NCBI GenBank assembly: GCA_034620365.1
Contig: JAQGEQ010000204.1
Coordinates: forward strand, 496,001-560,000
Source: Pegea sp. RAD2-039
Lineage: Eukaryota; Chordata; Thaliacea; Salpida; Salpidae
Direction of reading: 5' to 3'
Length of the DNA: 64,000 nucleotides
The first letter of the stretch is position 1. The number at the start of each line of letters is the position of its first letter. A model generated the notes under the pieces. That model saw only the letters and a program-made list of their open reading frames with translations. It had not been told where the DNA came from and searched no databases. A program made the position numbers and the translations under genes. Below are positions 1,174-44,122 of this stretch, in pieces.

Positions 1174-2290
1174 CTATTTTTGATTTTTAATGACTTTTTC
1201 AAGGTCCGACGATATTTCCTTAACTCTGTTTGATATGATCGTTGAGATATCTGGAGCCATAATGACCTTACTTAGAGGTTCTCTTAGAAGTGCCTGATCA
1301 AACAAGATAGTTTAAACAAAATATTCAAACTTTACAAAAATGAGCTTGTTGCTTTAGTGGTTATATATTTCAATCTTTGGTGAGAAATTGAAATTGATAA
1401 CTATATAATGAATAAAATGTGAGGAACCTCTAGTTCTGAACGTCTTGCTTCATGAGTCCCCACTACATAAGAGTGTACACCTTCAATTTGAAGTTTCACT
1501 GCTATATTTCGAAACTGTCCCACATCTGAAACTCTACATACCAATAAAGCTGTTAAATCTGTTTTAAATGACGAATTCTGATTTTCAAGTTTGCCAAAAA
1601 GTTTGGGTTTTTTATGTTCAACAGTTTGAAAAATGTTATCAAACGATCACTAACTAAATTATTATATAAGCTTAAGGTATATTTGAGTTATTTAATTTAT
1701 CGATTTATTGTTTCATGAAGACTAAATATTTTTGAATGAGAACTCTACTAACTTGCTTCTTGTTATCAAAACCATAATTCTTTTTATACAAGTTGAGTTA
1801 TCCTTGGTCGATCTTACACGAAAGCTGTAGAATAAGGCTTTTTTCACGGCTTTTCCTGTGTAGGCTTCAGTTATGTCCTCATCATGTTTTTTAAGCAGCT
1901 GAAGATCTTTCTAAAAAATAATAATTTTAAAAGATAAAATACTTGATAAAATCTTTATCAATAAAGAGATTTTTACTTACAATAAAATCCTTTTTATTGT
2001 TAAAGTATTTCAAATCAAATTCTATTTTGATTTTGGGCTGATTTCTGAATGATCTAAAAATAATTAACTGTATAAAAAACTTCCAATCTATTTGCAGTAT
2101 AGTTTTAATACTCTTACATATCTTTGATGAGTTTTGAGTACAGAATAAAGCCCAAACGTAGACTGTCAAAATTTAAAGTGCTCACAACTTGTGAAATCAA
2201 TGACAGTGTTTCATTAAATTCTGTACTGTTCTCATAACCCGATCCTTGTACAACAAACATTATATCCGTACGTCTTTGAAAACACTTAGC
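1174..2290 (-). other. VWA domain of paralog A, degenerate MIDAS
   Basis: Five exons encode a VWA fold. The first begins around KCFQRRTDIMFVVQGSGY, then LRLGFILYSKL; later exons give AYTGKAVKKALF, IMVLITRSK, SDVGQFRNIAVKLQ, IEGVHSYVVGT and ALLREPLSKVI. Intron positions match the VWA domains of the two other paralogs (for example RRSELE|ALLREP here, KRELE|TIVG in B, RRPELQ|TLIN in C). The first MIDAS motif DxSxS reads QGSGY and the later TDG/IDG reads TRS; only the middle Thr is kept. Metal-dependent ligand binding is therefore unlikely. Confidence 0.8.
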
Positions 2291-5200
2291 TTGAAAAAAG
2301 TTAATTGTTAGTTATAAATGAAAGTTTTTAAATCATATTTTTTCTCACTTGGAGTTTTATTTATTTCTTCCAAAGCTGCAAAAGAAAATATGTTTAAGAT
2401 GTTAATAAGGTTCATATATCTAATAATACATGTAGTTACCGGTGCACTTTGGAAACTGAGCATTTGCCAAAATTTCTAATGATCTATTTTTAATCTCCGT
2501 ATAGAAGTTATGATACTTTTCTGGAACAAGCTTTATAAATTCATAAAAGAGGTTTTTAAACTGCCTTTCTTCCAATATTAGAACATTTTTGTACGCTCTT
2601 TAAAAGTAAATGGCATTATAGCATGTGAAAGGTTTTGAAAATATTTGTCACAAAACCTGCAAAACTCATTAGCTGATTCTGGTCGAATAAAAGCATCTAA
2701 AGTTGAACGTAAGCTATTCTCGTCAATAGATAAGTTTGACAATTTATTGACCAAAAATCGTTTGATTCTAGATTGTCCTGAACCTGAACAAATCTGTTCT
2801 AATAACTCATAATTCATTATTAATCCAAATGAAAATTGTTCCTGAAATGATGAAAGTGATCTTAGAAGATTATAGTTTACATTTATACTTGTTGTTTACC
2901 ATTTGTGAAGAACTTAAGATGGACTGTAACAGCGCGTACAGATTAGGCTTGCTTCCTATTAGACATTCCTTAACTTTTTTTTCAGCACATTTTTTAAAAT
3001 ATTTCATATTTAAGCTGCAACACAAAGCAGAATTTATTTATATAAATGCTAGTAATAAAATAAAATCATAGTAGGGATAACATAACTTTGGGCATCTGGT
3101 ATTATCTAAACAAATGAAAGTTAACGCTTGACAAAGTCCTGGGTAGCAGTTTAAAGAATTTATTTTAGTTGAACTGTTAAATCGAACAAACTTAAAAATT
3201 TACAGCTACCAATGATTCATAGTTGGCAGTTACAAAATAATAATTAAAATAGATAAATAAAAACAGATTTTTTTACATTGGTTAAGTACGTTTTTGGTTG
3301 AGTATATTGTGTAGTTATACCTGCATTCATAATTCATTTTATATGGGAAGTTATTGAATACCAACGAAGCACAAAGCATGTAATCATCAACCACTTGTTT
3401 GATTGTACAACTGGGATAAATATTTATTTCTTTCGAATCAGTTATTATACCATCAACCACTAAAAAATTCAAGAAAAATATTTTTATCATGCTAGAAAAA
3501 TAAGTGGTAATAACAGAATGATGCTAAAAAATGTTTAAGTATTTGGAAGTTTAGTTTATCTAAAGTTTAAATCATATATTTGTTTATATTTGTGTCTGAT
3601 GATAAGAGTTGGCACAATTTTAATGATTTATTAAGTTTCATAAATTAAAATATGCTGATCGATAAAAGAATAATATTTTCATGTTTACTCTTTTTGTACA
3701 TTTCATTTACTTAATCTTGTTTTAAAACATTTTAAAAGTTTCTAGTTTTTACTTACTATCTGCAACAGTATGACTTTCCACAGATGGATAAACAGTTGTT
3801 TGTTTATTTAAACTTGGTGTTGTCGATAAATCGAAGTAAGGCTGAACTTGTTGGCATTTTCCATTTGAAGAACAGCATGTAATGTTTGAATATTTTGGCA
3901 TAAAATTATCAAAATTAAGGTTTGAAGTTTTCACATATTCACTCAAAGAAGAAAATTGTAGCTCTTCACAAGGAATATCAATACATGAACCATACTCTAC
4001 ATCCACAAAAGCTAAAGAAAATTCCTTTATTAATAACACTGTTCTTTCAAGAAAAAGAGAACTTTTTATAACTTCTTTACTAAAAACATATTGGAATTTT
4101 TGATGCTGTAGTACAGTGACTATAGTATTTTTTGTTTAAATCATAAGGTGGTCGTAATAAAAAACTTAACTAAGATGTTTAAGTTGCATACCAAATATAA
4201 AACTTGAACTTACAATTTAGGAAAAAAACTTCCATTTTTGTTTGAATACAAGAAGCTAGGGAACAATTTATAACTTGTTGCTGTTTGAGTTGAACTATAC
4301 CCTGAGATTTTAAGCCAACCACACAATCTCCTTTGATAAAAAGTATCCATCAAATAGAACTCGTATAAAATAAAAACGAGCTTACCATCAGCTGATGGAC
4401 TATCTGTCGTTATCTTTTGTGTCGTTAGGTTTTCTGTTGTCATCTTTTGCGACGTCATTTTTTGTGTTGTCATACTTTGTGTTGTTGTGTTTTCTGTTGT
4501 CATACTTTGTGTTGTTGTATTTTCTGCTGTCATACTTTGTGTTGTTGTATTTTCTGCTGTCATACTTTGTGTTGTCGTATTTTCTGCTGTCATACTTTGT
4601 GTTGTTGTATTTTCTGTTGTCATACTTTGTGTTGTCGTATGTTGTGACGCCATATTTTGTGTTGTCATCCCTTGTGACATCATTTCTTGTGTCACTATCT
4701 TCTGTGATGTCGTTGCTGATGTCGAAGTAGCTATCATCTCATTTCTTTCATGAGTCGTTTGATGACAAGTTCCGTAGCGATCACAGCAAGTCACGTGGCA
4801 TAAAGATGAAAAAGATGCTTTCCGAAAGAACAAATTTGTGACGTCATCGCTTCGAATTTCATCACAATTGTAAGAGCTTTGACACGTCGAAATCTCATCA
4901 ACACAATCCTTGTACTCCACCAGAAAATTAGCTGAAAGATTTGAAATCTTTTAGAAATTGAGCAACAGAAGAACAACAATATGAATTTTTTAGCAGAGTT
5001 ATATGATACTAATTTGAATATTTTTTTTTACTTTCGTCAATCGTCATGTTTGTTGCTACAGTAACACAGCCAGCAGATGGAGATGATAGATGGCAAGCTT
5101 TCTGAGAGTCGAAAGTATTTGAAAAGGAAGAAATCTTCATTCCTTGCAGGCAGGAGCTTATACCTATCAAAATTATTCTATTTATTAAATGTGAATTTTG

Positions 5201-13900: not shown

Positions 13901-14664
13901 CTAATTATACAGCAAAATATCTTATCTTCTTTTGTTTGAGCTTTATGGTTAATACTTACAAACGATACTTTCCATTTACAATAGTTCTGGTTTTTCTGAT
14001 TGAATGAAATTCAGAAAGTTTATATCAAGATTTTTTTTACAAATAATCGTTCCATTATTTAATCAGCATTTTTTAAAAGAAGATCATGATACAAGTGAGT
14101 CATCTGATGTGTACATAACAGTTTTAATTCCGTACAATATAAACTACTTTTACATTATTTATCAATAGCGCTGAAGTCGTGCTATCTTAGAAGGCTTCTT
14201 CTGCTAATATATAGTCTGACGTATTTTTTACGGGAGTAGCTTTATAGGGTAGACAAGTGCAAATCAGCCTAACAGTATTGCTTAAATGTATTTTACGTGT
14301 ATAACAGCTCAGACAGTTTGTCATAAAATTTATTTAAGACTATTTTCTGGAAATAACGATGGCTATGGTTTAATTAGCTAGATTTTAATTAAAAGCAAAT
14401 ATTTGGCAGAGTCTCAAAAGTTCAACATATTCATTGCACAAGAGAATTGCTCTTTCCGGGAATCAAATATTTTTATTTAAGATTTACAATAACCTCAAAA
14501 CAATACTATCTACGAAACTATTTTGTTTATTTTATTTTAGAGTTGATTCACCGATAGTTTTGTTTGTATTCTAATACCAAGTTTAGACAAAATATTGTTA
14601 AAAATCAATTATATCGCAGAATACAGTAAATTTATGAAACAACTCGAAGCTTTTACAAAACAAA
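10996..14664. other. intergenic, no gene recognised
   Basis: AT-rich sequence between the start of paralog A and the end of IFT43. It should hold the promoter of paralog A just above 10995. I saw no exon with splice sites and no recognisable protein; the short open frame at 12476-12703 has no family resemblance and strong AT bias. Confidence 0.5.
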
Positions 14665-18398: not shown

Positions 18399-21300
18399 TT
18401 AACCACTTTTAGAATAAGATAGCATAACATTTTTGTCGAAAAAACAGCTAAAAAAAGTTAATTTCAAAACTAAGTTTTACTTTTGTTTTTATAAAAGCAA
18501 AATTGTTAAAACTGTTTTTAGATTTTGATACTGGATTGTTGTAATTGAAAGCTTACTTACCTTAACAAGTCAAGTAATTGGTCTTTCAACCGCTTAACAA
18601 ACTTGTAAAGTGTTCTGACTTGTGTTCTAAATGCTCGCTTTTTAGCAAATCTTTTGCCAACTATGGTCTATAACAAAACACAACGTTTGAAATCGAAAAT
18701 TCTTCATTTTTATTCAATGAAAATTTTATTTTTTTTACCTCTAGCTCACGCTTGCTTGCATGGTCGATTCCAGCAGCGAAAAAAGTGAAGTTTTTTGCTC
18801 CAGAGTTTGTAATTATATTTTCCATTATATCGTTATCGTTTGCACTAAAATAGAAATAGAACATTTCAAATGTCTTTCATATAAATAACTTAGAAGCTTG
18901 AAAAACGTTTCTACTTACAAAAAACATTTTTAAAATATTTATACTTACTATCCGTCGGTTACAACAATTATTACTTTCTCCACGCATGGATCAATGTATC
19001 TTCCGGTTTTAGGAAAATCATAATCAACAGCTTTTAAAATAGCATGAGCTGTGTAAGTTGTGTAACCGTCTGGAACTATTTTTCTTAATGCCACCTGCAT
19101 TAATTAATAGTCAGCAGTAAATTTCTGTACTTGAAACAACTTTTAGTGAGCTCTTACATTAAATTCAAGATGGTTAGTAAATTCGCCGATATCTATTTCA
19201 GTCGATAAATATCTCTGCTTTTCCATTGATCTGATAATAAAGAATTTTGGTTTCTTAAGATTAGCAACATTGAGTGTTTAGAAAATTTATAAATAGTTGA
19301 TAATTAGTCTTAAATCAAAATAAAATAGCATAAGCTTCAACAACGTGTTTATTATAAATTCAATTTATTATAAATTTTAAAATATTCAAACATTTTTACT
19401 TATAACGCAATTTATCGCTCGATATTTAAACTATTTTTGAGACTTGGTGATGACTTATAACGAGTAATAACTAGTTATTTACTGTAAACTTAAAAGCTAG
19501 TACCGATATAAAGCAACCGAGACAGAGTAACTAAAAAACTTATAGCATTTTGATCTACCAATTGACTTTGATCAAACTCTTGTAAACTCTAGAAGTTAAG
19601 TAAGATTTCACTAATAATGACTAAACAACAGATAATGAAAAATCACTTTGAGAAAATGATTCTATTTACTGTGGTATATTTCATCAAATATATTTCAAGC
19701 ACAAAATTTATGCTGTTATTTAGTAAATAACTTAGTAGATCACCTCGAGCCACTGTAGTGAGAATACTGCATGACTCCAACCTTATTTTTAGTCAAATCC
19801 AGATATGAAGTTAGATTTCGAGTAAAATCTAATACTAAATTAAAACTTTGTGTACTCATTGAGCCAGATCCATCTAAAAGAAACATTAAGTCCAATGACT
19901 TTGCCTTACAATCTGCAATTAAATTGTTAATAATCAGATTGTTAGCTGTCGATGGAAGTAATAAAACACTGACCACTCATGCTGGAGCTTGAAAGTGTTG
20001 GTTGCGGCAACATATCTATCAAAACAAGATATTTTTGAGAAAAAAAAGATATTTCATCGTTTCAACAAATAGTTTTCATCAAACATAAAATAGCTGATTG
20101 ATAATATTTTAAAAAATGAAGTATGACTTTGATAACTAATATTAAAGAACAATGGTTTACATTGAGACTTAATATATATGATGATATAAATATAAATAAC
20201 TAAGTTTTTTTCTTACTTCTTGAATTTTCTTTAACTAGGACTACAAAAGCTGAAACACAAAAGTCATTTAAAGAAATGTTTACAACTTTTTCCAAAAACT
20301 TACATATGCAATGAGGAACAAATGAAGAGTCAATCAAATCGATTAGTTTTTCTGAAATCATTGAATGAAAAACCGAATTTCCAAGCTTTTCTTCAAAATA
20401 AGATATAGTTGGAAGTATATGATTTACAACTTGTGAGCAACTTCTTAGTTGTAAAGATATTCCTTCCTTATATTCCATATAGTTTCTAACAAAAATAAGT
20501 TATGGTAAATTACAAACTTCAGATGAAATAAGCTGTGAATAATTGCCTCACTTGCAAAATGTTAAAAAGTCTTTTTTTGACTTTGTTCTATTTTCAAAAT
20601 TCTTTTGAAGTCTGTTGATTTCGTTTAAAGCTTCAAAGGCACAAGAGTCAGTCAAATTAGTTTCATCTTTTAAAAAGTTGTTATTTAGATTAATAACTGA
20701 AAGACTTGAACCATCTTCTCCAGAACAAATTAAGTTTTCGGTGGGTTGTAAAAGAAATGGTTGAGTGTAGTGTAGAGCATTTTTAACATCCTATAAAGAA
20801 GCAAACTTGTTGTAAGGACCACAAAATACTTGTGAAATACTCACTTGAGTGTATGCAGCAAATGAATCATTACGAAGAATAATAGAAGGGTTTGTTCCCG
20901 TAGAGCATATTTGTATCATTCCAATCATACAACTTTCTAAATGCTGCATGTACAAACTGCAAACAACATAATATTTAATGAAAAACTATCGATAGTAACA
21001 CACTTACTTGCAGGATAGACTGTCTTCGAATGGAGCTTCATTGAGAAAGGAAGCCACGCACAGCCAGATTTTATTATATGTTTCTACCCAATTGCATCCT
21101 GGTAAAAACGGAATAGTGTCAGGATTGCTTTTTTCTCTTTGACATTCAACCAGTTCTGCTCGACTTTCAGAAACAAATGGTGTGCTTGTTGTCCCATGAA
21201 TATTTGTGAAGATTTCTTCATCTGTTGTGGTGTTTATGTCAACTTTATCAAGTAGTGTTGTATTTGGAACAGTTGATTGGGTAACTTCGTCATCAATAGT

Positions 21301-24300: not shown

Positions 24301-27300
24301 TCTCTGATTTGTTGCTACTGTTGGAACTGCTGCAACGTTGGTTGTCAGGAGTTGTTCAGGAGTTGTAGTCTCTGATAATAAAGCTGCTATTAAAAGTTAT
24401 TTTTATGAAATTATTTATATCTTTATGTTTTAATCTAAAATTATAATTGTTCTTCAATTACCTTTTGTAAGAAAGTAACCTAAGAAACCAGAGTTGACGA
24501 TACTATTATCTGATATGAAATTTAATGTTACTGTTGATGTTTTTGAAACAAGGGTTGTCACTGCTTTTTTCCCTTTTAATCTTGTTTGCTGGACATCTCC
24601 ATCAATAATCTAAAAGTAATTAGTTGATATAAAAATCAGATTTATTGTCGTCATGATAAATGAGGAAAGAACTCACATCAAGGTAATCGCAGCACGCTTC
24701 TGTGTGAAAATGAGTGAATGTGATTTGAATGACTTCTCCTGGAGGAGCTCTCAACTTCCAAGTGCAGTTAGCATTCATTGGATATGCCAAAGGATAATCA
24801 GGTGAAGAAATCTCTTGTTTTACTACACCGGCTTTTCGATCAAAACCACATGTTTCTATAAAATGAGTTATTAATGAAAACACGCAACTTACATTTTTAC
24901 AACTTTTTATTTCAGTAAATACTCAAAACCTAAAATATTTTAATACGTTGATCTCTCGATACTAAGTTGGATACATTTCCGATTTTTATTTAGTTTACTT
25001 TTAAAAGTATTTGAAATTAAAAGTTATCAAAACTTGGATCCTACAAACAATTATGATTATTTAATTATTCAACCATAAATACGCTTTTTAACTAAAAAAC
25101 ATAAAATGCTAAATAGAATAGTACAGCCTTGTGTACTATTTTAGCTTTAGCATACTTTTGTTGACACAGAAACTTGATCTAACCTTCTTTTTGCTTTGTA
25201 GATTCAGTTGTAAGAATAAGATCTTGTGGCTCGTAACCATATCCTGAAATTTCGTGATTATATGGTTAACGCTGAATGAATCACTGCTTAAAAACTATTA
25301 TTACCAGTTTTCGAGCACCAACTTACCCGTGGCATAAATTAATTTGAAGCCAGTGTGCTGAACGGACGAGTCGCTAAGGAAACGGACAATCAGAAGATTA
25401 GAAGTTGTGACGTAATCCATTTTTTGAAGAACATCTCCTGAGCCTCTCATCATCACAACACCGTTATCTAGAAGCTAATGACTAGCCCATTTTACTTCCT
25501 GGTTTAACTTATCGATATTACAATAAGTATCTTTGAACCAAGTTTTGAAATATTCTAGTTAATTTATCAATAAAAATTAAAACAATTAGTTTTTACTTCT
25601 ACGTGATCACAACATTGTTCTGTTTGCATGTCTTGAAAATGAATCCTTATGAATGTATCATTTCCAGGAGCACGAATTACCCACTGACAATTAAGATTAG
25701 GTGCATACTCTTCAGGATAATTAGGTGTCTCAATCACTTGCGGAAGATCACTAGAAACTTGTTCAAACCCACAGCCGACTGCAAGAACGAGATTAAATTT
25801 CAATCTCAATAAATCATCATAAAGACTCAATAAAAATGAACTCTGACCTGCAACAGCCCGTGTAGTAGTTGACTGTGTCGTGGTTAACTTGACTAGAGTA
25901 AATCTAAAGTAAGAGGTTTAGGGGTAATTACAAAGAGAACTCACGTGTCCTGAAATGAGCGACTAGTCCAGCCCTTTCTTCAAACTGGTCACTTTCAAAT
26001 ATGAGAGTCAGATGGTTTCCAGGAGATACAAAGCGTTGCTGATGCTTAATTACACCTGATACTTCTCCAACTCGATCATTTCCGGAGTATATCTGTAATA
26101 ACTCAACATCATTCTTGCTTGGATCACAAAACAACGAATTTGTTGCTTAAACAGAAACCAAAAATAAACTGACAAATAGTTTGTCGCAACATTTCTCTGT
26201 TTCGCCTTCATCTATCAACAGTTCAATCTTCTCATCATCTGGTGCATGAAGAATCCACATGCACTGGATAGCTCTTGGATATTCAATCGGATATCCAGGA
26301 GTTTGTATCAATTGTAACTCATCAGTCGATATCTTTTCAAACCCACAAACACCTGAAGTTGAACATCAAAAATCGATCAACTAAATGTCAAGCTGTCAAC
26401 TAACTTGGTAGATCTAAATCTGGAGGGTCATCCGTAAACACTGCAAAAGTACCGAATCAATCAAAGCGTTGCTTGACGTCACAAACTTACCTGCTCGAAA
26501 AATCCCGCGGAATCCCCGACTCATCAACTCTTCGTCTGAATGAAATCTGATTCTAGCAACTGCATCAACTGCCAATAAGTAATAAAATGATTTGTCGGAG
26601 CTGACCGGTCTCTCCAACGCCACTTCGTTTTCAAACGGCTAAAAGTGACCTAAGATCAGATCAACAACTTCCAGTCGCTCTTCATCTTACTTGGACATAG
26701 TCGCAGCAGCGTTCTACATCAACATCTGAGATTGTGAGCTGAATCCTTCCCCCGGGAGGAGAAGTTATGATCCAATCACAATCAACATTTGCAGGATACA
26801 TGTTTGGAAAGTTTGGTGAAGAGATCAGGACTTCTTCTTCGCTTCCAACAAAGTTTCCCCCGCATATAGGCGATGGTGACGTCACTGCTTCTGTAAGTCA
26901 CGTGACATGTTAACAAGCTAAATATTCATTTTGAAATTACACAAAAATCTTTTCGTTTGTATCTAGATTAAACATTACCAGCAAGCTTACAAGTTACCTT
27001 CAGTGGTCCTCACAGAAGTAGAAGATGGAATCGAAGGTTGAATAGAATCCTTATCATCTGGAATATCTAAAAATAAATAAAAAAAAGTTCACATTTCTTA
27101 TCGCATTATTGGTGAAAGATCCCAACCTGATGCTGTGTAGCTGATGTTAAAAGCGTTTCGACCATTTGACCTCCCAGATTTGAAGTGCAAAGTGACAAAA
27201 GTTCCATGAGTTAGTAAACGGAGACCAGGTAACACGTTGTCCTCATTTAAACGAATGATCAAATTACTTTCAATTGAATTTTCAATCGAGTCAGCATCGT

Positions 27301-30300
27301 AGATCTTTGAGTATTCAGAAAGTTAATTTGCTCATTAGAAGCAATCACAAAAGTGATAAACCTCTAAATTGTCTTCTTGACTCTCGAAATCTTCAATTGT
27401 GATTAAAATATGAAAGGTGGAAATAGATCTTAAAATCCACCAGCATTCAAAACCATCTCTCAAGCCGAAAGGATAACCAGGGGATAAAATAGTTCCAATT
27501 AAACCTTCAAGAGCAACAAGATCTGATCTTCCACAAAGAACCTCATCTACGTATTCTTCAGGTCATGATAAAAAGTAAATAATTATTTTAGAGCTTTTCA
27601 GTAGACATTTTCTAACCTTCTGTTATTGTAAGTAAATCGTCAGTTTCTGTTATTGTCACTAAGTCATCTGCTGGTTTTTCTGAAATATTGAGTTCAAAGG
27701 TTTAAATAAAAACCATTAAAACTTTAACGAACCAACAGATTTATAAAGAATTGTAAATCCTGAGTCTTGCCATTCAAAATCACTGTTAAAGTTTAATCTG
27801 ATGTAATGTGATTTCGAAAGAAATTGAGTAGTATTAATCGCTCCGGAAACTTCTACTCTTGCTTCTTCTTGATTATCAACTACAGCCCCATTAAATATCT
27901 ACTTAAAAATACATTAGGACATATAAAATGATCTGGTAGAATTTGTAGAACCTTTAATTTGTCGCAACACTCTTCTGTTAAAAAAGATTGTATAGTAAGG
28001 AGGACTCTTCGATCTTCTGAAGTAGATATTGTCCACCAGCAATTTAGATTAGGCATGTAGTCATTTGGATAACCCGGAGATAGCAATGTTGAGGTAGTGT
28101 TTGTGGCAATCAAGTCTGTTTTACCGCATTGATCTAAAAATGTTCAATTTTATCAACCTAAAAACTGTTTGATCATTTATTAAACACTCACCAATGGTCG
28201 GAGTGACTTGATTTGTATATTCTTCTACAGGATTTTGATTATTAGCTTCTACAAATTTTAAAACAACGTTTAAAGACATGCAAAAAATTTGATCAAGGGT
28301 TGATTAATTGCAATTTACCAATAGCTGTAACTGTGATGTCAAAACCGCCTTCTTGAAGATCAAGATCAGAGATAAAATGAAGAGAAAGATAGTTATAAGA
28401 TGAATATGTGTAAGTTTCATACGAAGTTCCTTTGTTGGTTCGAATGATATTGAGAAAATTAGAGCTTTGAGGAGAGGGTGAATCATATATCTAAATAGAA
28501 ATAAAATAACAATTGAAAAATGAAACGATTCAAATGTGAGTCACCTTTAGAAAGTCACAACAGTTCTCAGTCGAAAAATAATTAAATATCAAAGCAATTC
28601 TGGTGTTTGGTGGAGACGCTATTATCCACCAGCAGTTTTCCGACGGGTTATAGTTTAGTGGATAGTTTGGTGAAGTGATTTCAACACTTTGATTAATCTT
28701 AACGTATCTGTGATTGTTTTCACAACCCGTCTGAACACCTAAAAATAGTTTGTATTTACAAATGATACAAACAAAACTGTAACAGATAATGCTTACCAAC
28801 AGCCTTGTATGAGATGTTGAAGCCTTCAAATTCATTTTTATCATCTGTCAAAAAGTTCATAGCAAGATATGAAGTAGCTGATGTTATTTCTTGATTGGTT
28901 AGCTTCGATTTTTTGTCTTTTTTACTCTGTTCTCCTTTCATCTCAACAAATCGATGAGTCAACGCTGCCTCTTTGATATCTCCAGCGTTGTACAACTTTA
29001 AAAAAATGTTAGTAGAAAATAAGAAATTAAATTACTTTTTTATACAACTTACTGATAATGAATCACAACAAGCTTCAGTGTTGAAATGATTGAAGGTTAT
29101 TTTTACATAAGATCCAAATGGGGCCTCTATGATCCACCAACAATTTAAATTTGGCTGATAGTTCAGAGGAAATTGTGGTGAAGTTAAGCTTTTATCTTCT
29201 CCGGGAAATGCTTGTAGTTTCTGAACACCACAACTTGGTGTTATATTTTCAACTTAAAAAAAAGTAAACTCTAGAAAATTGTTGGAGGTATTTTTTAAAA
29301 CCTTACTAGCTTCGTTATCAGTTTCAAATTCTTCTTCAAGAGGTGATTCTGAAAGATAAAGATTAATTTTAAAAGCTTGTAGTAAAGTGTAGACTTAAAC
29401 TGAATATCATGTATAAGTAAACACTTGCACGTGTGAAGCTCAAAGTTATCAAAGTATTTTTTGATCTTTTCAACACTACACATGTTTCATATCAAATATA
29501 CATGAAAATATACTTTAAGGTTAGTTACAAAACTGTTTGATAAAGATAAGACGATAAGAATTTGAAGCAAAACACCTTTTACAGCAATTGTAACATTCAA
29601 TAATTGATCTTTCTCAACTTGACTCGAATTAAACCTAAAAGTAAAGTAATTCAAAGGTGACATCAACTCAAATGTGTCCGTAGATGTCGGTACAGCTGCA
29701 ATTAAGTTGCTCCTTGAACTGAAAGATTGGGATGTAGCAAAATATATCTGTAAATATTTTCACAAGTTAGTTTCAATTATTCAATTTATATTCACTTTAT
29801 TTCAATCACCTCTATTGATTGTCTCTCGTTAAGATTTGAAATAATTGCTTTAAGTTTATTATTTGGTTTTGTATAAACTGTCCACCAACAATTATTCAGA
29901 AAAACTTTATTGAATGTGAAAGTTTCAACCTTTTCAATTGACTTTGTTTGCCCGCAAACTAACAATAAACAAATAAAAATAAGAATCTTTCACCAGAGTT
30001 GTTTGTCACTAAGCAAAGTCACTCAATAATTAATTTAGAGTTAATCGAATAAGTTCAAAAATTTAAGCGGTAATTTACTTTCTGATTTTACCTTCTAATA
30101 ATTTAACTTATAACTAGTAAATTGAAATTTTCAGAAAGTAAAAATAAAACTTTATGGCTCTTAAAATAAAGATAAACACGAACTTTAAAAATATAAATAA
30201 CTTACTGTGAGATGCGAAAAAGATTATGGATGAGTTTGATTCTGATAAATTTGTCGTAGGATTGTACTTGCTGATCATATAGATTTTTATTGATGATGAA

Positions 30301-31119
30301 ATTGATGAAATATTTACTTCAAAATCCGAATAGTTAGAAGAGAACAGAACTTCTTCGTTTTCAATATCTGTGACCTGTTTTTATAATTATCATTTTTGCA
30401 TTCAAATATTCTATTTCGTTTGTAAATATTACTTCAATGAAATATTCTTCCATATTAATCAATTGTAAGTTGATTGTCATTCCTTTATTAGCAGCAGTTA
30501 CGTTCCATTCACAAAACTGTTGCTTGAAATGTTTGATTGAAAGTTCTTTGTGAGAAGTTGATGCTATAAAAGTTCTTCCACAAACATCTTGAGAATCTAA
30601 ATAACATAATGATAATTTCGCCGAGTATTTAACTAAAATATTTTATCAATTTCAACTGTCTTATATTGAAATGGAAGTTTTAGATTATCTTTTTTATTTT
30701 TTTATTGCGAATTAACTATATATAAGATTGAATATACTTTGATGACTACAGCTTATATAATGTTAACTTTAATTAATTATATAAATTCTATAAGCTGTGA
30801 TGTTTTCATAAATAAGATTTGATTCATGATAAGATTACAAAGTTTTCTTTGTGACTTCGTCAAGATCAATCTAAATTTTTAATTGAATGATGTTAAAACA
30901 GCTGTAATTAAAAAACAGCTGAAAGGAAAAATTTACAACAAAGCAAATGACTCGCTTTTGTTGCTTATCTTTAAAATCAAATAAATAACTCGTCAAATAA
31001 CTTATCAAAATAAAAAATATTGAAATAACCTTACCTTGGCGATTTGGCAAATAGTTAGCTGAACAAGAGGTAATCAAGGCGGTAATTACTAACAAACCAA
31101 AAAAATTAAAAAATTTCAT
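18399..31119 (-). CDS. secreted CUB(x10)-mucin-Ly6-like-VWA protein (paralog B)
   Basis: Start at 31119 gives a signal peptide (MKFFNFFGLLVITALITSCS) just after a possible 5' UTR splice acceptor. Ten CUB domains follow at about 30.60-30.23, 29.96-29.59, 29.23-28.80, 28.74-28.32, 28.13-27.73, 27.55-27.13, 26.88-26.40, 26.35-25.95, 25.79-25.33 and 24.85-24.46 kb. Seven carry CCD; domains 1, 2 and 6 lack it. Then come a Thr-rich exon (24.37-23.94 kb), Ly6-like exons (23.53-23.10 kb; KCEENFSCFSAEL, LSCCNQSGCTQ), a long exon with a mucin-like repeat array (23.05-21.00 kb), Cys/helical exons (20.96-20.2 kb), and a VWA domain (19912 to about 18.56 kb) with intact MIDAS: DGSGSMS, the Thr in DGYTTYTAH, and IIVVTDG. 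My preferred last exon is 18447-18399 (ends KSG, stop), which closes in phase. Probable role: secreted, heavily O-glycosylated, multivalent adhesion or matrix protein; partner unknown. Confidence 0.83.
18561..19912 (-). other. VWA domain of paralog B, intact MIDAS
   Basis: Exons at 19912-19744 (CKAKSLDLMFLLDGSGSMS...VGVMQYSHYSGS), about 19.23-19.16, about 19.09-18.95, about 18.84-18.73, and 18667-18561 kb. The DxSxS motif, a mid-domain Thr in GYTTYTAHAI and the VVTDG Asp are all present, so divalent-cation-dependent ligand binding is plausible. A basic segment (KRFAKKRAFRTQVRTLYKF) follows the domain. Confidence 0.88.
21004..23050 (-). other. large mucin-like exon of paralog B
   Basis: A single exon of about 2 kb encodes a Thr/Pro/Glu-rich segment. 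It includes Thr/Ser-rich flanks with many N-glycosylation sequons (NTSK, NITN, NATN and others), the central 33-bp repeat array, and a C-terminal Cys-containing stretch (LVECQREKSNPD, PGCNWVETYNKIWLC) before the donor near 21004. It is expected to form an extended glycosylated stalk. Confidence 0.85.
21507..22630 (-). repeat. 34 copies of a 33-bp/11-residue mucin-like repeat
   Basis: The unit PVVEPFETTTE is repeated about 34 times with no gap. Variants are limited (TTTK, TATE, DSTVK, DKTTK, YTTVK, LVVEPF). Outer units, especially at the protein C-terminal side (21.5-22.0 kb), are more diverged, while the centre (22.0-22.5 kb) is nearly uniform, the pattern expected of a minisatellite expanding by unequal exchange. 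Because 33 is divisible by 3 and the unit lacks stops in most frames, long open frames also appear on the other strand (21507-22454 and 21779-22993); these are not genes. Confidence 0.97.
23935..24380 (-). other. Thr-rich linker exon of paralog B
   Basis: Thr/Ser-rich coding exon just after the tenth CUB domain: runs such as TTTPEQLLTTN, SSTRKTSTTVRPTTTTEE and LRTTTTLNGTEF, with a donor before 23935. No tandem unit is visible. Likely an O-glycosylated spacer. Confidence 0.75.
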
Positions 31120-33705: not shown

Positions 33706-33782
33706 GTGAGTACAACATTTTTGAAATTTGTTATTCGGCTCAAATGTTTACCAAGATCAATAACAGATATTTGGATCTCATG

Positions 33783-36700
33783 ATGACCATTGATAAGTAC
33801 AAAGTTGTTAGACAACAGAAAATGCTACTTTTACTTGTGTTTATCTCTATATCACAAGGCCTTAGCTCGTCATTACATGGTATGCATTTCATTAAATTGT
33901 GAAACCTTCAGTAATAAATATATTTAAGAAACTTGTGAAACGGAAAGACTAATTGCAAGACCTATAAATGATACGAATCGAACTTTTTTCACTTCTTATG
34001 CTTACCCGAAGCTCTATACAAATGGACTTGATTGTTGGTGGATAATTAAAGCCAAACAAAATGAAAGAATCAAATTAACAACTTTTGATTTTCTAACTGA
34101 AAGCTGCTGTGATATTTTATGGGTGAGACTAGAGCTGAATAAATTTTTTTACTCAAAAGTAAAAACTTGAATATTGTTGTAGATTTTTAATTCTACTGTC
34201 GCTACTAATGATGGAAGTTTATTAGTTAATAAATGGTCTGGATCGATACCACCCCAAACATCAATAGTATCACCTTCAAATTTTCTTGCAATCAATTTCC
34301 GTACAAACAGTATTAAGAAGTTAAAAGGATTCAACATTTCCTATGAACTTACAAGTCATCATTAAAAAGTTAATTCTTTAAGAAATTGATTACTTTTCTA
34401 ACTTACAGATGAAGCAGCCACTCCAATGTTTGATTTGAAGAAAGAATATGAAAAATCAAACAAGAAAATTTGTAAATAATTGTTTTATGGTATTAAGTTT
34501 TTGGAATAACAAAAAACTCTTTATTCAGCTTCCAATAACTTCAGCAGTTGTTTTGATGTAACGTTAGAAGCTACTCCAGAACCATTAGAGATTGCTTCGC
34601 CAGGTTATCCACAAACTTATCCAAACGAGATGAATTGTAAATGGAAAATTGAAACCAAAGAAAATTATTTAATTCAATTAAAATTTAACTTAATTGATTT
34701 TGAACCTTGCTGTGATTATCTTCTTGTAAGATAAATATGTCAGATGATGATTTAGATAATCAGTTGTTCACTTCCAGATCCGAGAAGATGGAGATATTGT
34801 TAATACTCTAAGAAAAAATGAAGCCTCAGGCAGAATATTTTTATCAAAGAGTAAAAGTGGTTTTGAGCTGGAAATGAAAACGGACAAATCAATCCGACGA
34901 AGCGGCTTTCATGCAGTTTTCAGAAGTGGTGAGTATTTAACATCAGCGCAATATTTTTATACAAACAAGTAACATCATTAATAATTGTTGAAAAAAACGA
35001 AAAAACGTTTCTAAACTAAATTAACAATCGTTGTAATTCAAAGTGTACAACTTTCCATTTGAAGTAATAAAGATTGAGTTCTGTTCAAGTACTCACCTAA
35101 TTCCTTTTTATTAAGAAATATTTTATTTTCACAGTTCCACCTTCAAAGGCGAAGCAACCTTTTCCAAAAAAATGTAAATAAAAGAAGACATTTATTAAAA
35201 TCTGTGTTTGTTATCTGATTTTGAAATTCAGCGGTTAACAAAAATTTTACAATATTTTTAAACTTTAGGCAAATATTTAAAAACATGGATTTTAACGAAC
35301 TTTCAGATATATGCAAAGAAACTTTAGTTGCTTCAAATAAAGTACAAACATTCACTTCGCCAAATTGGCCGCAAAATTATCCCTTAGATATCCATTGCTT
35401 CTGGATTATATCAGCTGAGCAAGATGATTATTTAATTGAACTAAATGTCCACCAATTGTTATTAGATGAATGTTGTGATTATCTTGAGGTTAAACTTTAT
35501 TTACTTGTTAACTATCATTAAAATTTTAGCAAATTTTTGTCAACATTTTTGTGATTAATTTCTAATTTTTAATCTTAAATGATTTTTTTTAATTTTCAAG
35601 ATAAATGAAGAAAATCAAGAACCAATAAGATTGAGTCAAGGTTTTATCAAAACTTCATTGAAGTCTCATAACAACACCTTGAAGGTTGAGTTTATGTCTG
35701 ATAAATCTCTCGTTAACAAAGGCTTTCAAATCTCCTATAAGCAAGGTAGGATTTTATGAATTAGTTCAAGAAAAGTTTAATACTCTTCAGTAAATTGAGT
35801 TAATACTCTTTGATTAAAGTACCTCCAAAAATCACCACCTTGGAGGATAATCTGGAAGAAGCGAAAGAGGATATATTTCTATTTCGTAAACCATTTTTAC
35901 CAGGTTAGTTTAATCTTTATCTAAACAATTTGTCTTGTTCAGGATTTGATGACAGATTGGTTCAGAATCATATTTTTTTGATGTTCACACAACTGACAAA
36001 AACAATTTTTTTTTATTTGTTGGTTTTGCAGAGGTCGAAAATAAATTTTGTCCAAAAGAAAAAAAACAGATTTCTGAAAGTTGCATTCGTCTTCCTTTAT
36101 GGGTTTCTTTTCGTGAAAGTCAGTTTGAGCAAATTTGTTGACTTCAGAAGTTTATTTATTCTAAATTTCATCTTCTTCAGCCTATCCATGCGGATTCACA
36201 ACAACAGCTTCTGATGATATTCAAGATCTCAATTCGCCAAAATTCCCGTCATTATATGGAGCTAATGAAAGGTGCAGATGGCATATAAAAGCTTCACCAG
36301 GGTACAAAGTCCAACTTACAATCGGGTATTTTGAGACAGAATCCTGTTGTGATATTCTCAAGGTAGAACTCTCCTCTTGTTCATAAATCCGATGGTCTGA
36401 TTGGTTAACTTTAGATCTGGGGATCAAATAAACTAGAGATACGAATGGCTGGATCTTTGAGGAAAGATCAAACTTTTATTTCTTCAAATGAAAGTGGATT
36501 TATTTTGATCTTCAGATCAGATTCTTCTGTTCAGAAAACAGGCTTCAGAGGAATCTTCCGAAAAGGTGGAATTTTTACAAACAATCGAATATCGAGTCTA
36601 AATATTTTTTGAATTTTAGTTGAAGACAACAAAGAGGTCAAACCTCTTCCTATTCAACGTTGGTACTTTTATTTCTAGAAATTTCTGGCATCAAGTTTTT

Positions 36701-39700
36701 TGTATTTAATTTCGATTTTATTTACTGACAGCTCCAATTATTTTAATAAAAATTATTTTCTAAATGATTATTTGTAAAAATAATAATTTTTTGATCGATT
36801 GCTTCAATTTGTAATTTCATTTAACAAAGTTTGCTGCAAAATATTTGAAATATTAAATTTATAGCATAAAATTTAAATTTAATTATATTTATGTATATTT
36901 TGATCAATTGCATATAAATCTGACAAACTTGTCAAGCTAATCACTACTTACTTGAAAGTAGATATTAAATTTATAAATCTACCGCAATGAAGTAAACTTT
37001 TACAGCATTTTTACAGAACTTCTTTAACAAAACAATTATTTTAGCTCAATGTGGGTTTGAGGCATCTGTCACAGATAAATTAGAACAACTTGAGTCTCCT
37101 GGATGGCCTGGCACCTATCCAAACAATCTGAATTGTATTTGGAACTTTACTACTTCGAGTATAGGAAAGGAAATCGAACTAACTATCTATAGTTTTAATA
37201 CAGAAGCATGTTGCGACTACTTAGAGGTTTACTGAGTTTTGTTAGCTTATTAGCAATTAACATTCCGATAATTAAAATGCTTGATATGAAATTGTTTAAC
37301 AGGTTTTCGGTAAGAATGCAACAACTAGAATTAAGGGTGAACTTTTTAAGCCAATGACCATATTATCAAACGGAGCAAACTTAAATGTGTTTTTCTTTTC
37401 GGATAAAAGCAAGACTTCTAAAGGTTTTAACGCAACAATCAGACAAAGTAAAAACTTAAATGACAACTTAAAGTAATATCAAACACTAATTTATAACTTA
37501 ATACCTATCTACATTTAATTATTACATATTTTAGCAAGTTTTTATTATTATTATTACTATTGTCGTTTATTTTATCAACAAAACTTAATAATAGGTTTAT
37601 TCGTTTTAATTGTTAAAATGATTTTCAGAACTGATCACAAATTAAAATTTGCAATTTTACAGTTGATGCCATTTCAAATATTATTTCGGTTTCAAGTATG
37701 ATTCTTTGATTTATATTTGTTTTTCAAATTATCACTAAACTAGAAAACTATAGAAAGTTTTACAATTGAATTTTTAGATCTAGAAACACTGGCGGGAAAA
37801 TGTAAATTTAACTTGGAAGCAACTTCACAATTAAATTATGCAAAAAGTCCAAATTATCCATTTCCATACGATCCTAATACTGATTGTATTTGGATTATTA
37901 AACCTAAAAATGAAAACGAAATAGTTCAAGTTCAAATAGAAGAGTTAAAAACCGAATCATGTTGTGACTTTTTAGATGTAAGTTGATTTAACTGAAATAA
38001 TGGAAAGTCATTACAATTTGTGTAACCAATTAAAAACCTGCTCCAGATTTACTTAGTTGGAAGCGATGGTTACGATCGTTTAAGAGGAGATATATCATCA
38101 GTACGAAAGTTTATCAGTAGATCCATAGCTTTGAGATTTTTTTCTGACGGAACTGATCAAAGAAAGGGATTTAAAGCTTCGTATATTTCAGGTTATATTT
38201 CTACAATAGCTAAACAATCAAATAGTTTATTATAAATTTAAATGTTTTTTTCAGAAATTTTTTTAAAATGTTATTTGCTTTTTGTTGCAGTAAATCCTAA
38301 GCCTGAAAAGAAAGAGATAAAAAGTAATTTCCAAAACAACAATGAAACAGAAGAAGGTTTTTAATTATTTGAATTACACAAATTCCTTAAAATATAAAAA
38401 CGTTTTCAAATTCTGTGAAATGTTATTTTGATCTGATGATCAGCTAACTTTAGAAATGATGTCATTTAGTTTGTGGATACAAAGTTACTGCGGAGTCATA
38501 CGAACAAGAAATCACATCAGCTGGCTGGCCACAAAACTATCCCAATGATATGAATTGTCTATGGGTGATCGAAACATTTAAAAATAATCACAAAATTGAA
38601 TTGACTATTGAAGACATCAATACTGAAGCTTGTTGTGACTTTATTGAAGTAATTATAAAGTTGTCATATTTATAAATAGATTTATCAACAAAAAACTAAT
38701 CATTTTTTTCAATAACAGGTTTCTGACGGAGATTCGGCGCAAATATTTAAAGGGACTCTGTTAAAAAATCAAGTTTTTCGTTCGAAGAGAAATCGTGTTG
38801 CAGTGAAATTTGTCAGTGATTCAAATGGGAGGTTTCGAGGATTCCGTCTAAAATTCAAAGAAAGTAAGTTTATAGTCATGTAAATAGAAAATTATTTATG
38901 GATAAACGCTTGTGAAATATTTATTTATTTTCGTTCAATAACTAAATCTTTTTTTTCAGTTCAAATAAATGAAACTAAAAACATTATACCAGGTACCAAA
39001 CAAAACTTTGTAGAGTTGATAAACTTTTTTAATGTTATCTTGTTAGTTAAAGGTAAAAATAATTGTACATCATATCTCGTGGCAAGCGACAAAGAGCAAT
39101 TTATCACTTCCAAGGATTATCCAAACACTTATTATTCATATGAAGATTGTGTTTGGATTATACAAAGCTCTTCTCCTATGTCTCAAGTTGAAGTGATTAT
39201 AAATGAAGTATCATCAGAAGACTGCTGTGATTATTTAGAGGTTTTAACAAGTACATTACTGAGTAACTTTCTATGTTAGTAAATAATGGAATCGATTGTT
39301 TAGATTTATAGTGGCAAAGATAAGTATGAAAGGTTTAGTGGTTTCTTGAACAATACACAGAAGTTTCAATCTTCACTAATTGTTGTGCGATTTTTTACCG
39401 ATGGTAACATAGTTGAAAAAGGATTCCGTCTTTCTTACAAAAATAGTTGAGTAATTTGATTGAATTCATATAAAAATGAAAATAAAATTCATATAGAAAA
39501 ACTACTTTTTCTTATAATGAAGATTAGATTTTATTCTTATGAAGTCTTTTATTGTTTGCATAATTTTAAAAAATATAAATCTATCAATGACATATCATCA
39601 TACTATCACTTCACTGGAGATAGAAATTCTATTTATATTTTCAATAAAAGAATTATTTTTTGTTTCAGTTTATTCAAACTTTTCATCTGCAAACGAAGGT

Positions 39701-42700
39701 GAGTTTTTATATTTCTTTTGCTCCGAATTTTGTAAAGTTTATAAAATCAATCTCAGATTCATGTCAATTTGATATCCACCTCTCCAACTCTAGCCAAACG
39801 ATCAACTTCCCTGACTCACTTTTGTATCCATCTTTATCCAACTGCACCTGGAAGATCAGTTCAGAAAAAGATGAGAAGATCAGTTTGAATTTTACCATGT
39901 TTGAAACAGAGGAAGGTTGTGATTTTGTTCAGGTGAATCTTACAGCTGATCACTGATAAACTTCTTGAAACTAAGTCCTTAATTAGATCTTCGAGAAGCA
40001 GGAGTTAGTCGCTAACTTAAGTGGAGTAATCAACTTCTATTCTTTTCTTTCCAAAGAAAATCATCTTCTTCTAAGATTTATATCAGATAAGAAGATTAAC
40101 TTAAGAGGATTCAATGCAGTTGTCAGTTCTTCAGGTTTTTATTTAAACTTGCTCACCTTGTCGTGGTGGTAAAAGTTGTTTACAGAATTGAAACAAGGTC
40201 ATGTGACTAGCAGTAAGCCATCAAGAGTTGTAGATGAAAAATCAGCGTCGCAAGTGATGAGGAAGTTTAATTTGACAAAAGCTATCAGCGAAGCATTTTG
40301 TTAGTTTCTAAATTTTTAAAGAAAAATGTTTTGACTTCGACTTTTGTAGATCCAGAGTGTGATGAGGAGTTGATCATAGAAGATGAAACGATCTTTGTAG
40401 CATCTGATAATTATCCACAAAATTATAACCCCAACACTAGATGTCGTCATATCTTCAGAGGAAAAAACGGACGAAGGATTAAAATGATCTTTCATGATGT
40501 TAATGTAGAAGAATGTTGTGATTATTTGGATGTACATCTTCTGATGGTGATCATACAAGAACATGATTTTAAAATCTCTATATCTTAGCTCACTGATGGA
40601 GTGATTGGAAGTCGAATAAATAAATTAAATATGAAAAAAATCTCCAAGAACCTGACTTTTACGACAACAAGTGACCAGCTAGTTTCAAGCTTTTTTAGTG
40701 ATGACGTCATCAATATGAAGGGATATCTTGCAAGTGTTCAGTTGACCTCCTCTGGTAAGAATCTTGAAGTAGTTTTATTTTCCTCAAATGATTTAATGAA
40801 AATTCAGAGGAAGACGGATACAGAACTTTTTATTTTGATTCTGAGCTTTCACTTTCTTCTGAAATCTTTTCAAACTTATTGAAAGAACTTCATTTATTGA
40901 TTGTTAATACAAATCCAAAAAATAGGATTAAGGTTGATTTAAAGGGGACTGATTTTGACAATTGTTGCGAGAAGATAGAAGTAAGTAAACAATCTCGATT
41001 CCAAAGATGAATTTTTGATGTTTATTTCGATTTTCTAGTTATTTGATGGAAAAGAAACCCGGCTGATAAAGAATATGTCATCATCAAATTTGGAGGATAC
41101 TATTGAGACTACAACTTCTATTTTAACGATTAAAATAAAAAGAAAAACATCTTTGTCATCAAAAAACAAATTTCAGCTTTCATTTCAAAGCGTCGAAGGT
41201 TTTCTATTTTCGACTTTGAAGCTAAAAATTGATACATTAGTGAATTCATACATTCAAGCTATTATGCAAATTGATGCATTTGTTTTGAATCTTTAATTAT
41301 TTCAACGTTGATTTCTAGAGACAACAGAATCATTCACAAGTAAAAGCTGTGGGTCAACTTTACTTGTGAAGGACATCAGCCAGCTTATGATGTCGCCAGG
41401 ATTCCCTGAACTTTTCAAAAACAACTCGAATTGCAAATGGCTTTTAAAAGCTGATGATTCCTCTAAACTGATTCATTTATTCATCGAAGAATTTGAAATT
41501 AATGACTGTTGTAGCAAAGTTAAGGTTTGTAGCTCCTGAAAGTCTTCATCATTCTCATAGAATGTTTGAATATTTTAAATTAGGTTTTTGATGGGTACAA
41601 TGATAACTTTCCTCTTCTTACTGAGTTTGATGCCAATAATTCTCCCAAGGACACACTAAAGTCATCATCCAGATTCTTGTACATAACTCTGCGAGCAGCT
41701 GAAAACTCTGCTGAAGGCAAATTTATCATTTCTTATTTTCAAGGTACAAATTTATTTATGGTGAAAAGAAATGTTTTAATCGTGTGTCTATAGATGCAGC
41801 GGAAAGATCCACAACTTGTGATCTTACTTATGTGTCTCTTGATTCTCCGACATCCTTGACATCAAAAGGATATCCAACTTCATATCCTCATCAGGAAAAT
41901 TGCTCTTGGCATCTTGTAGCTGAAAATGGAAAGATCATTGAGTTGATCATTACAGATGCTGATATGGAGACTTGTTGTGACTTCCTTGAAGTACGATGTA
42001 GGGGGAACTTTTGAAAGATTTACAATCTTTTAATAGATTACAGATGGAAGAGATAATCGCTTGATCAAGAAATTTAGTAAACTAAATGACAAGCAGATGA
42101 TTCTGTATTCTTCTACCTCCCAGATGAAGATTAGAATGTTTTCAGATCGATCCGTAGGAGGACGCGGCTTTCAAGCAACTTTTCAGACAGGTTTCTATGA
42201 CGACAGCATCACTTTAACCAAAGACTACTTTTAATAATGAAATCATTAGTTAAGAAATCTTCTGAACGCGATTTGTGTGGATATACGTCATACGTTCGAG
42301 AAGACGAAATCATGACCATCTCTACTCCCAATTATCCTAAGGCTTACTTGCCTAATTCTGAGTGTCACTGGTTGCTAGTTGCCGCTGACAAGGACCAGCA
42401 AATTCGTCTACAAATCGATGATGCACGAATCGAAAAATGCTGTGACGTCATAAATGTAGGTTTAGTTTGAGCCAACCAAACATGTAGCTTAGAAGTCACG
42501 TGATAGATTTATGACGGAAGAAACATCGATGCTAAAGTGATTGGAGTGATTAATGACCATGTGAGTGGATCGGGGCGCGAGTACACGTCATCTTCGGGTG
42601 CTCTTTACATCGTTTTCAGATCTGATCTCACCGGAAGCTTTCGCGGATTTCACGGAATTTACTTTCAAAGTATAAAATCTTAACAATCCCATTAAATGTT

Positions 42701-44122
42701 ATTGAAGTGTTTTACAAACTACCAGCTGATGGAAGCAGCTCCTTTTCACATATTTGCCACCAGATGGCGCTGCTTCAAGCTGATGACGTCATCATTAAAG
42801 AGAAATCGATGGAAAGCTGTGAGAGAAATTCGAAATGTTTCCAAATAACATCAGAAGACTTCACTGCAGAATCAAATATTTCCTCCGAATCAAGTCAGTT
42901 CCTACTCCTTTCTATTTAATTTAACAAATCTTCATCTTCAGCTCGTGTAAATCTTGGAGGATGCATTTCTGCTGATGAATGTGATAACCTTACATGTGAT
43001 TACATCTCACAAGTTTCTAATGTTTCAATTCAGTTGAACTCTTGTAAGATCAGTTGCTGTAGTGGTGATCTTTGCAACTCAGGTAAGATTCAACTCTTGA
43101 GCATTTCTTTTGGAAGCATTTTGATAGAAAAGTTGTTTTTTCTTGTTACAGATGAAGCCACAAATGGAAACGGTTTGTTGAGTTTTGTTCTATCAACTTT
43201 TGTGCAACAGAAACTACCAGACTCATGTTATAATATCTTATGATCTAAATTTGCAGAATGTCAGAATCGAAATTTAGATTTACTCTTCCTTATCGATGGA
43301 TCAGGATCTTTGACGTTAAAAGAATTTAATTTACAAAAAAAATTTGTTGAAAGAGTAGCAGAGAAATTTGAAATTGGAAGAGTTTGGATTGGAGTAATGC
43401 AATACTCTCATTGGTTCAAATGGAGGTAATTTGCATACTTCTTAACCTGAGCTACAAATTTTAATATCAACTAAATTAAATATTTATCGATAAATACATT
43501 TATTTTGTTTCAGATCGCTGACATCCGAAGATCAAACTTACTTTGAAACTCACATTTCACTCGGCAACTATTCATCATTTGATGAATTTTCAGTCAGTTA
43601 CTTTGAATATTAATCATAAATTTCTACAACTGACCCATTTCTGTTTTAGGACGCTTTAGATGCAATCAAGCCTCATGGTTTCACTTCTTATGTGGCCCAC
43701 GCCTTAGAAAAAGCTGTTGTTGAAGACATGACTGAATCAAACAGATTTCTGGACAAATGTACAACAAAAGCGATCGTAGTGATGATTGACGGGAAGTTAG
43801 TATCACCAAAGCTCGATATTTTTCGATAATGATAAAAAATTGCTTTGAAGGGCTTCAGATAGTCGATACTTGAAGACAGGGCATAGGAGGGCCAAATCTT
43901 TAAATGTTGAGCTACTAGGAGTTGGAATTGATCAGTTTCGAAGACCCGAACTACAAGTAAGATTCTATTAACTTTAATCTTGTTACTTTGTTTATATTCT
44001 ATGTTTAGACGCTTATAAACGGTCAACCAGGTGTCGAGCGAAATATATTCGAAAGTAGAAAGTTTAACGAGTTGGAATCTTTGGTTGAGAGCGTGTACTC
44101 TTCATTGGATCAGTTGATTTGA
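33783..44122 (+). CDS. secreted CUB(x14)-Ly6-like-VWA protein (paralog C)
   Basis: A 5' UTR intron is likely at 33706-33766. Two starts are in frame: 33783 and 33822; the second gives a compact signal peptide (MLLLLVFISISQGLSSSLHG), the first adds MMTIDKYKVVRQQK. Fourteen CUB domains follow at about 33.93, 34.53, 35.27, 36.18, 37.04, 37.78, 38.47, 39.05, 39.76, 40.34, 40.80, 41.32, 41.79 and 42.24 kb, each two exons. Twelve carry CCD; domain 9 has GCD and domain 11 CCE with a poorly conserved first half. A Ly6-like segment follows (42.72-43.08 kb: SCERNSKCFQITSE, ARVNLGGCISADECDNLTC, SCKISCCSGDLCNS), then a VWA domain (43.26-44.12 kb) with DGSGSLT, GFTSYVAHAL and VVMIDG, and a stop at 44120-44122. 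No membrane segment, so probably secreted. It lacks the long mucin array of B. Same design as A and B; ligand unknown. Confidence 0.85.
42715..43085 (+). other. Ly6/three-finger-like module of paralog C
   Basis: Two exons carry a ten-or-so cysteine pattern ending in CKISCCSGDLCNS, the CCxxxxCN signature of the Ly6/uPAR/CD59 three-finger fold. It sits between the CUB array and the VWA domain, the same place as the CC-containing modules of A and B. The fold is inferred from the C-terminal signature and spacing only. Confidence 0.6.
43255..44122 (+). other. VWA domain of paralog C, intact MIDAS
   Basis: Begins ECQNRNLDLLFLIDGSGSLT and continues VWIGVMQYSHWFKW, ISLGNYSSFDEF, PHGFTSYVAHALEKAV, AIVVMIDGK and VELLGVGIDQFRRPELQ. 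All three MIDAS loops are preserved. It ends at the C-terminus with ESVYSSLDQLI. Confidence 0.88.

Follow-up and report, generated by a model that had tools for sequence, protein, structure and literature searches.

A three-gene cluster in the salp Pegea predicted to encode secreted proteins that combine CUB arrays, cysteine modules and VWA domains

Introduction

In the genome of the tunicate Pegea (105.7 Mb in 387 contigs), a stretch of contig C42 (positions 496001-560000, 64 kb, henceforth the window, to which all positions without a contig name refer) contains three neighboring genes in which CUB domains, cysteine-rich modules and VWA domains follow one another. Two questions arise from this locus, namely whether these modules really belong to single proteins and, if so, what such proteins might do.

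Results

Three genes with one module order

The coding modules of the three genes (A, B and C) span positions 1174..44122 in our hand-set spliced models, these two positions being the stop-codon ends of A and C, respectively. Exons were fixed by hand from splice sites and phase, since automatic models split, skipped or over-joined them, and the models were in part fitted to a rule by which each CUB domain is an exon pair (phase 1 to 0, then 0 to 1). All introns of the curated models are GT-AG and each gene is a single open frame with no internal stop. The first exon of A (11412-11334), which carries its signal-peptide-like start, is the least certain of that gene; several linker exons are also uncertain (6500-6577 in A; 35820-35885, 36032-36118, 38960-39240 and 40186-40299 in C), and a candidate 42-nt exon of B (19974-20015) was omitted. 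Genes B and C are arranged head to head, and an IFT43 gene (14668-15350) lies between A and B. Beyond C, three adjacent small Cys-rich open frames on the minus strand (44975-46536) show a defensin-like spacing ending in CC and have no Pfam match. An Rfam scan of the window gave no match at gathering scores.

Table 1. Positions of the three genes and their modules in the window.
Feature	Position	Strand	Basis and remarks
Gene A	11412-1174	minus	35 exons, 1648 aa; spliced model and Pfam; signal-peptide-like start, 6 CUB, Cys module 1, Thr/mucin stretch, Cys module 2, extra Cys domain, VWA
A CUB 1-6	10328-9845, 9519-9049, 8998-8604, 8064-7645, 6441-6055, 5748-5326	minus	exon pairs; Pfam CUB in 6 stretches
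A Cys module 1, mucin and Cys module 2	3757..5163	minus	spliced model, alignment
A Cys module 1	exon 5163-5032 and start of 4931-4386	minus	
A mucin repeat	4416-4665	minus	30-bp unit
A Cys module 2	4330-4214, 4011-3757	minus	
A extra Cys domain	2440..3459; exons 3459-3321, 3014-2900, 2841-2657, 2597-2440	minus	alignment to B
A VWA	1174..2289	minus	5 exons; MIDAS lost
Gene B	31119-18557	minus	39 exons, 2591 aa; spliced model and Pfam; signal peptide, 10 CUB, Thr stalk, Cys module, mucin stalk, extra Cys domain, VWA
B CUB 1-10	24462..30596; first 30596-30206, last 24855-24462	minus	exon pairs; Pfam CUB in 8 stretches
B Thr-rich stalk	23646..24371; exons 24371-23949, 23702-23646	minus	spliced model; upstream of Cys module
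B Cys module	23149..23527; exons 23527-23372, 23304-23149	minus	spliced model, alignment
B mucin exon	21008..23060	minus	its end starts the extra Cys domain
B extra Cys domain, remaining exons	20304..20956; 20956-20845, 20790-20552, 20485-20304	minus	alignment to A
B VWA	18557..19912	minus	5 exons; MIDAS DGSGS / T / D present
Gene C	33822-44122	plus	44 exons, 2137 aa; spliced model and Pfam; signal peptide, 14 CUB, Cys module, VWA; no stalk, no extra Cys domain
C CUB 1-14	33929..42669; first 33929-34354, last 42250-42669	plus	exon pairs; Pfam CUB in 13 stretches
C Cys module	42708..43082	plus	three-finger Pfam Activin_recp match
C VWA	43257..44122	plus	5 exons; MIDAS DGSGS / T / D present

An initial annotation of this DNA had proposed that the three genes share one order of modules, and the spliced models together with Pfam bear this out (Table 1). 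It listed one Cys module with an optional mucin stalk, but A has two Cys modules around a mucin stretch, in B one stalk precedes the module and another follows it, and C has no stalk. Likewise, CUB, Cys module and VWA were correctly listed, but an extra Cys domain in A and B and the loss of the metal site in the VWA of A had been overlooked. The modules, their order, the predicted signal peptides and the metal-site residues can be read from the sequence itself, and the common ancestry, secretion and multivalency suggested for the three proteins are supported at that level. The top hydrophobic stretch is N-terminal in all three and none of the stretches listed is C-terminal; weaker internal ones lie directly before the VWA in B (residue 2367) and in the doubtful exon 38960-39240 in C. 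N-glycosylation sequons number 31 in A, 41 in B and 29 in C.

CUB arrays and VWA domains

The proposed CUB counts of 6, 10 and 14 agree exactly with the number of exon pairs in A, B and C (in models partly fitted to that rule), and the Pfam CUB model (PF00431) independently recognizes 6, 8 and 13 stretches above its curated cut-off, i.e. 27 against 30 by exon structure. The three copies that Pfam does not match are supported by exon structure and by weak matches to a local profile, built from 11 domains, that marks most half-domains in the window (B CUBs 1 and 2 weakly). One copy, CUB 11 of gene C (40808-41198), is degenerate. A tree of the CUB domains had little resolution, with stars on 2 of its 27 inner branches. 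The CUBs of A cluster in it (2 label changes, with 0 of 500 shuffles as low); those of B (225 of 500) and C (51 of 500) show no clear clustering. A phase-0 intron after the C-x-Y/F-D motif was dropped as a candidate family-specific trait, given that canonical CUBs on contig C47 show it as well in four automatic models.

All three VWA domains score above the Pfam cut-off (PF00092; E 1.1e-17 in A, 1.4e-23 in B and 2.9e-24 in C). As the initial annotation had stated, their intron positions match, with entry phases 1-2-0-2-0 in each gene and exon lengths of 172/73/158/106/120 (A), 169/73/146/106/110 (B, whose last exon is one base short at this length, its stop ending at 18557) and 169/79/146/106/114 (C). 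Identity to the VWA of B is 35% for C and 21% for A. The MIDAS motif of VWA domains consists of DxSxS, T and D. Its residues in B and C predict metal binding, whereas A has QGSGY and an Arg where the last Asp would be expected. The nearest solved VWA domains by profile are those of collagen VI, integrin alpha-M and the mussel thread protein PTMP1. Within the genome, VWAs of integrin-like genes on contig C58 are among the closest outside the window, and in automatic models they have 4 of the 5 VWA intron positions in common with A, B and C. These genes form a cluster of similar members (C58:265279-414218) in which a VWA comes after an N-terminal part that we take to resemble the first blades of an integrin-alpha propeller; in a two-copy composite, the VWA is the only domain recognized by Pfam. 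Genes like these are also found on contigs C35 and C132.

Cysteine modules, stalks and an extra domain

The Cys module had been described as Ly6-like. For C this is backed by a match to the three-finger Pfam family Activin_recp (25.1 bits against a cut-off of 20.9, E 3.5e-5), but Pfam gave no match for either module of A or for that of B. These three align to the module of C at 16–23% identity with six invariant Cys. In PDB profile searches the best match of the C module was BMPR-2, at a non-significant E of 1.7, and a profile of all four modules had no match; NCBIfam returned for the C module one chance-like match far below cut-off. As judged from sequence, the label "three-finger-like" is therefore fair for C and only probable for A and B. 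Ly6/uPAR proteins are small or GPI-anchored and consist mostly of the module itself, whereas here the modules are embedded in proteins of 1.6–2.6 kaa, and none of the hydrophobic stretches listed forms a C-terminal tail. The mucin exon of B contains a 33-bp (11-aa) repeat (34 copies, 92% match, 21504-22626), whose length may vary between individuals.

The extra Cys domain occupies 200–230 aa before the VWA in A and B, which share 22% identity and matching exon phases over it. Read by eye, it is probably helical. It had no match above cut-off in Pfam (A and B), in PDB, or in NCBIfam (scanned with B only); a DUF1759 match of the B domain (E 0.029, below cut-off) was discounted. Gene C has no room for it, as its Cys module and VWA are parted by just two introns (69 and 84 bp) and a 21-bp exon.

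One gene or two

The point on which the module combination depends is whether CUB array and VWA lie on one gene. An automatic pass with no CUB bonus recovered B and C as one gene each, from the CUBs through the VWA, and broke A into three; an earlier pass chained B to A via IFT43. Because of this over-joining, the continuity from CUB to VWA rests on splice sites and phase and not on the automatic passes. On that basis, much the better reading of the sequence is a single gene in each case.

The alternative, that CUB arrays and Cys/VWA parts are separate genes of operons, appears highly improbable to us. Ascidians do have operons and spliced-leader trans-splicing, the Ciona spliced leader occurs in this genome, and automatic models do over-join genes here. 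The gaps after the last CUB are just 57 (A), 90 (B) and 38 bp (C), and unspliced frames would stop in or near them, but all three have GT-AG ends with phase 1 on both sides and fall within the size range of the other introns (median 80, 67 and 59 bp in A, B and C, respectively). Nor do the models of A, B or C contain a clear start codon with a signal-peptide-like stretch downstream of the last CUB. The internal hydrophobic stretch of B, with a Met about 20 residues upstream, might be taken for such a start, but it falls at the end of the extra Cys domain, which A has too. Moreover, the same order is seen three times.

Elsewhere in the genome, none of the matches listed placed a CUB within 90 kb of a VWA (150 candidates scored per profile). 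When the Cys and extra domains of B were searched against the rest of the genome, the sole match at E 0.1 was a VWA match on contig C6 that runs on into the last part of the extra domain. The search with C gave one weak VWA match that extends into the Cys module, on contig C38 (E 0.006, with 3 stops).

Some general features of the genome were also observed. The fusion of cellulose synthase with GH6 is a tunicate mark, and both are found in one automatic gene model on contig C14 (66000-76000; Cellulose_synt 1.4e-8, Glyco_hydro_6 1.8e-14). Counted with a following GT, the Ciona spliced leader is present 99 times, against 0 for a reversed control, and 33 of the 99 are exact copies in a tandem array on contig C4 (1135044-1142219), mostly about 199 bp apart. 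An identical leader is described in Ciona intestinalis, there within a 264-bp repeat (a passage in PMC7986045), and cellulose synthesis is described as confined, among animals, to tunicates (a passage in PMC3390340). Taken by themselves, the fusion and the leader very probably indicate an ascidian or a near relative sharing that leader. Searches for nematode (Col_cuticle_N, TTR-52) and arthropod (Chitin_bind_4) families gave no match; their built-in controls were silent too, so that these searches add only supporting evidence. COX1 was not found.

A CUB variant with adjacent cysteines

In canonical CUB domains the second disulfide joins C3 to C4, about 20 residues further on. The CUBs of A, B and C depart from this plan. 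An adjacent Cys pair is present in 26 of the 30 (24 times as CCD), never with another Cys after it, and all 25 copies that have exactly four Cys possess the pair. In an alignment of cubilin with a profile made from 10 of these 30 copies, the first Cys of the pair fell on cubilin C3 and the C4 position was not a Cys. Neither Cys of the pair occurs in B CUBs 1, 2 and 6, and this joint absence is what a vicinal disulfide predicts. Because CUB 9 of C is an exception, with one Cys of the pair missing, we still only infer the bond; CUB 11 of C keeps the pair and lacks the first two Cys. A vicinal Cys-Cys pair would then replace the canonical second disulfide, and it may alter the usual ligand site of the domain. 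Calcium-binding CUBs (cbCUB) carry a Glu-Asp-Asp acid triad, which is complete in 22 of the 30 copies and absent from 8, so that calcium binding is predicted for most of them.

How widespread is this variant? By a simple motif test on 17 other loci of the genome (some overlapping), 8 had the canonical C-x-Y/F/W-D motif, 3 had adjacent Cys and 6 were untypable, one of the latter (on contig C147) having canonical CUB forms in automatic models. The three adjacent-Cys loci are all on contig C21, which also has CUBs with no such pair. There, tandem and near-alike CUB arrays that include adjacent-Cys CUBs extend over positions 2525000-2555000, with no VWA match within 290 kb. A CUB variant with adjacent Cys was not found in the open literature searched; the vicinal disulfide of BMP-1 is placed in the catalytic domain and not in a CUB (a passage in PMC6372009).

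Tentatively, these domains could be a CUB subclass of their own: in most of the 30 copies at this one locus, the C3–C4 disulfide would have given way to a vicinal Cys-Cys bond next to the calcium site. Coupled to a VWA, such a subclass might represent an adhesion or recognition system, tuned by metal and perhaps by redox state, that is special to tunicates, or common to them and the nematode M02D8.5 family.

Discussion

Comparison with known proteins

The individual modules of A, B and C are of kinds already known, and no named ortholog with CUB, Cys module and VWA combined was recognized among the open-literature matches listed; an unnamed one may well exist in ascidians. Cubilin resembles these proteins in having a CUB array of the same fold by profile, but the aligned piece has the canonical Cys pattern. 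Cubilin also has an EGF part, and is not known to carry a VWA or a three-finger module. For the C. elegans protein M02D8.5, a name not met in the open literature searched, comparison was through the Pfam models PF23061/PF23062: the three arrays pass PF23062 (M02D8.5-like third CUB) at 2e-53, 4.3e-59 and 8e-105, although plain CUB scores higher, and 12 of its 13 matches in the genome are in the window, the remaining one being on contig C21. The VWA is of the integrin alpha-I type in its shared intron positions and PDB profile matches, but the beta-propeller that surrounds it in integrin alpha subunits was not recognized here; instead, the VWA is C-terminal and preceded by CUB and Cys modules. 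In nematode C-type lectins both CUB and VWA occur as added domains (a passage in PMC9085898), but those proteins are built around a C-type lectin domain, none of which was found by Pfam in the pieces of A, B and C scanned. The house proteins of larvaceans (oikosins) are, like A, B and C would be, secreted matrix proteins of a tunicate. Compared by description only, they have CUB in oik4 and oik6 and VWA in oik35, that is, in different oikosins (a passage in PMC3390340).

Possible functions

The reading to which we give about an even chance is that A, B and C are secreted, multivalent and cation-dependent extracellular linkers. The manner in which such CUB and MIDAS sites bind is general knowledge, and the metal binding, ligands, tissue and cross-linking proposed here are put forward on these grounds. 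The reading draws on the gene models, the N-terminal hydrophobic stretches, the acid triads, the sequons, the VWA intron positions in common with the genes of C58 and the nearest solved structures. For the VWA these are the ones named above; for the CUBs, with a profile built from 10 copies, they are cubilin, neuropilins, PCPE-1 and complement proteases. An array of 6–14 CUBs, most with a calcium-site triad, would provide a large number of weak contacts to the basic side chains of one partner, and the C-terminal VWA of B and C would bind, through magnesium at the MIDAS, an acidic group of a second partner in the matrix or on a cell surface. These two ends would be spaced by the three-finger module and the glycosylated stalks, and A, with its dead MIDAS, would bind through the CUB array alone. 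Binding would not be uniform within the family, because the triad is missing in 8 of the 30 CUBs and the MIDAS in the VWA of A. Such linkers would most likely build or decorate a body coat, be it the tunic, a mucus sheet or an egg coat.

Recognition roles draw on the same modules as adhesive linkers, and the main rival reading is that these are not structural coat proteins but recognition proteins, acting between sperm and egg, in self/non-self discrimination or in the immune binding of microbes. Strong divergence among the paralogs and their unequal CUB numbers might suit such proteins, but there are only three genes, two of them with long stalks, and we hold this rival to be somewhat unlikely. 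CUB-bearing proteins do take part in gamete interaction, with sea urchin EBR1 (CUB and TSP1 repeats) and the CUB domains of HrProacrosin as described cases (a passage in PMC9265791). A soluble carrier or scavenger like cubilin, gathering ligands on its CUB array and docking via the VWA, is a further and quite improbable alternative. The best solved match of the CUB profile is indeed a four-CUB piece of cubilin (E 4.5e-55), but the EGF part of cubilin is missing from A, B and C, and mucin stalks would be unusual in a carrier.

The three genes document a multi-domain extracellular family for which no name was found in the open literature searched, and whose CUB variant has a Cys plan unlike that of textbooks. 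Should the vicinal bond prove real, disulfides would have been rearranged within a ligand-binding fold that is very common. For work on the protein chemistry of the tunic, of mucus or of gamete coats, the family supplies candidates.
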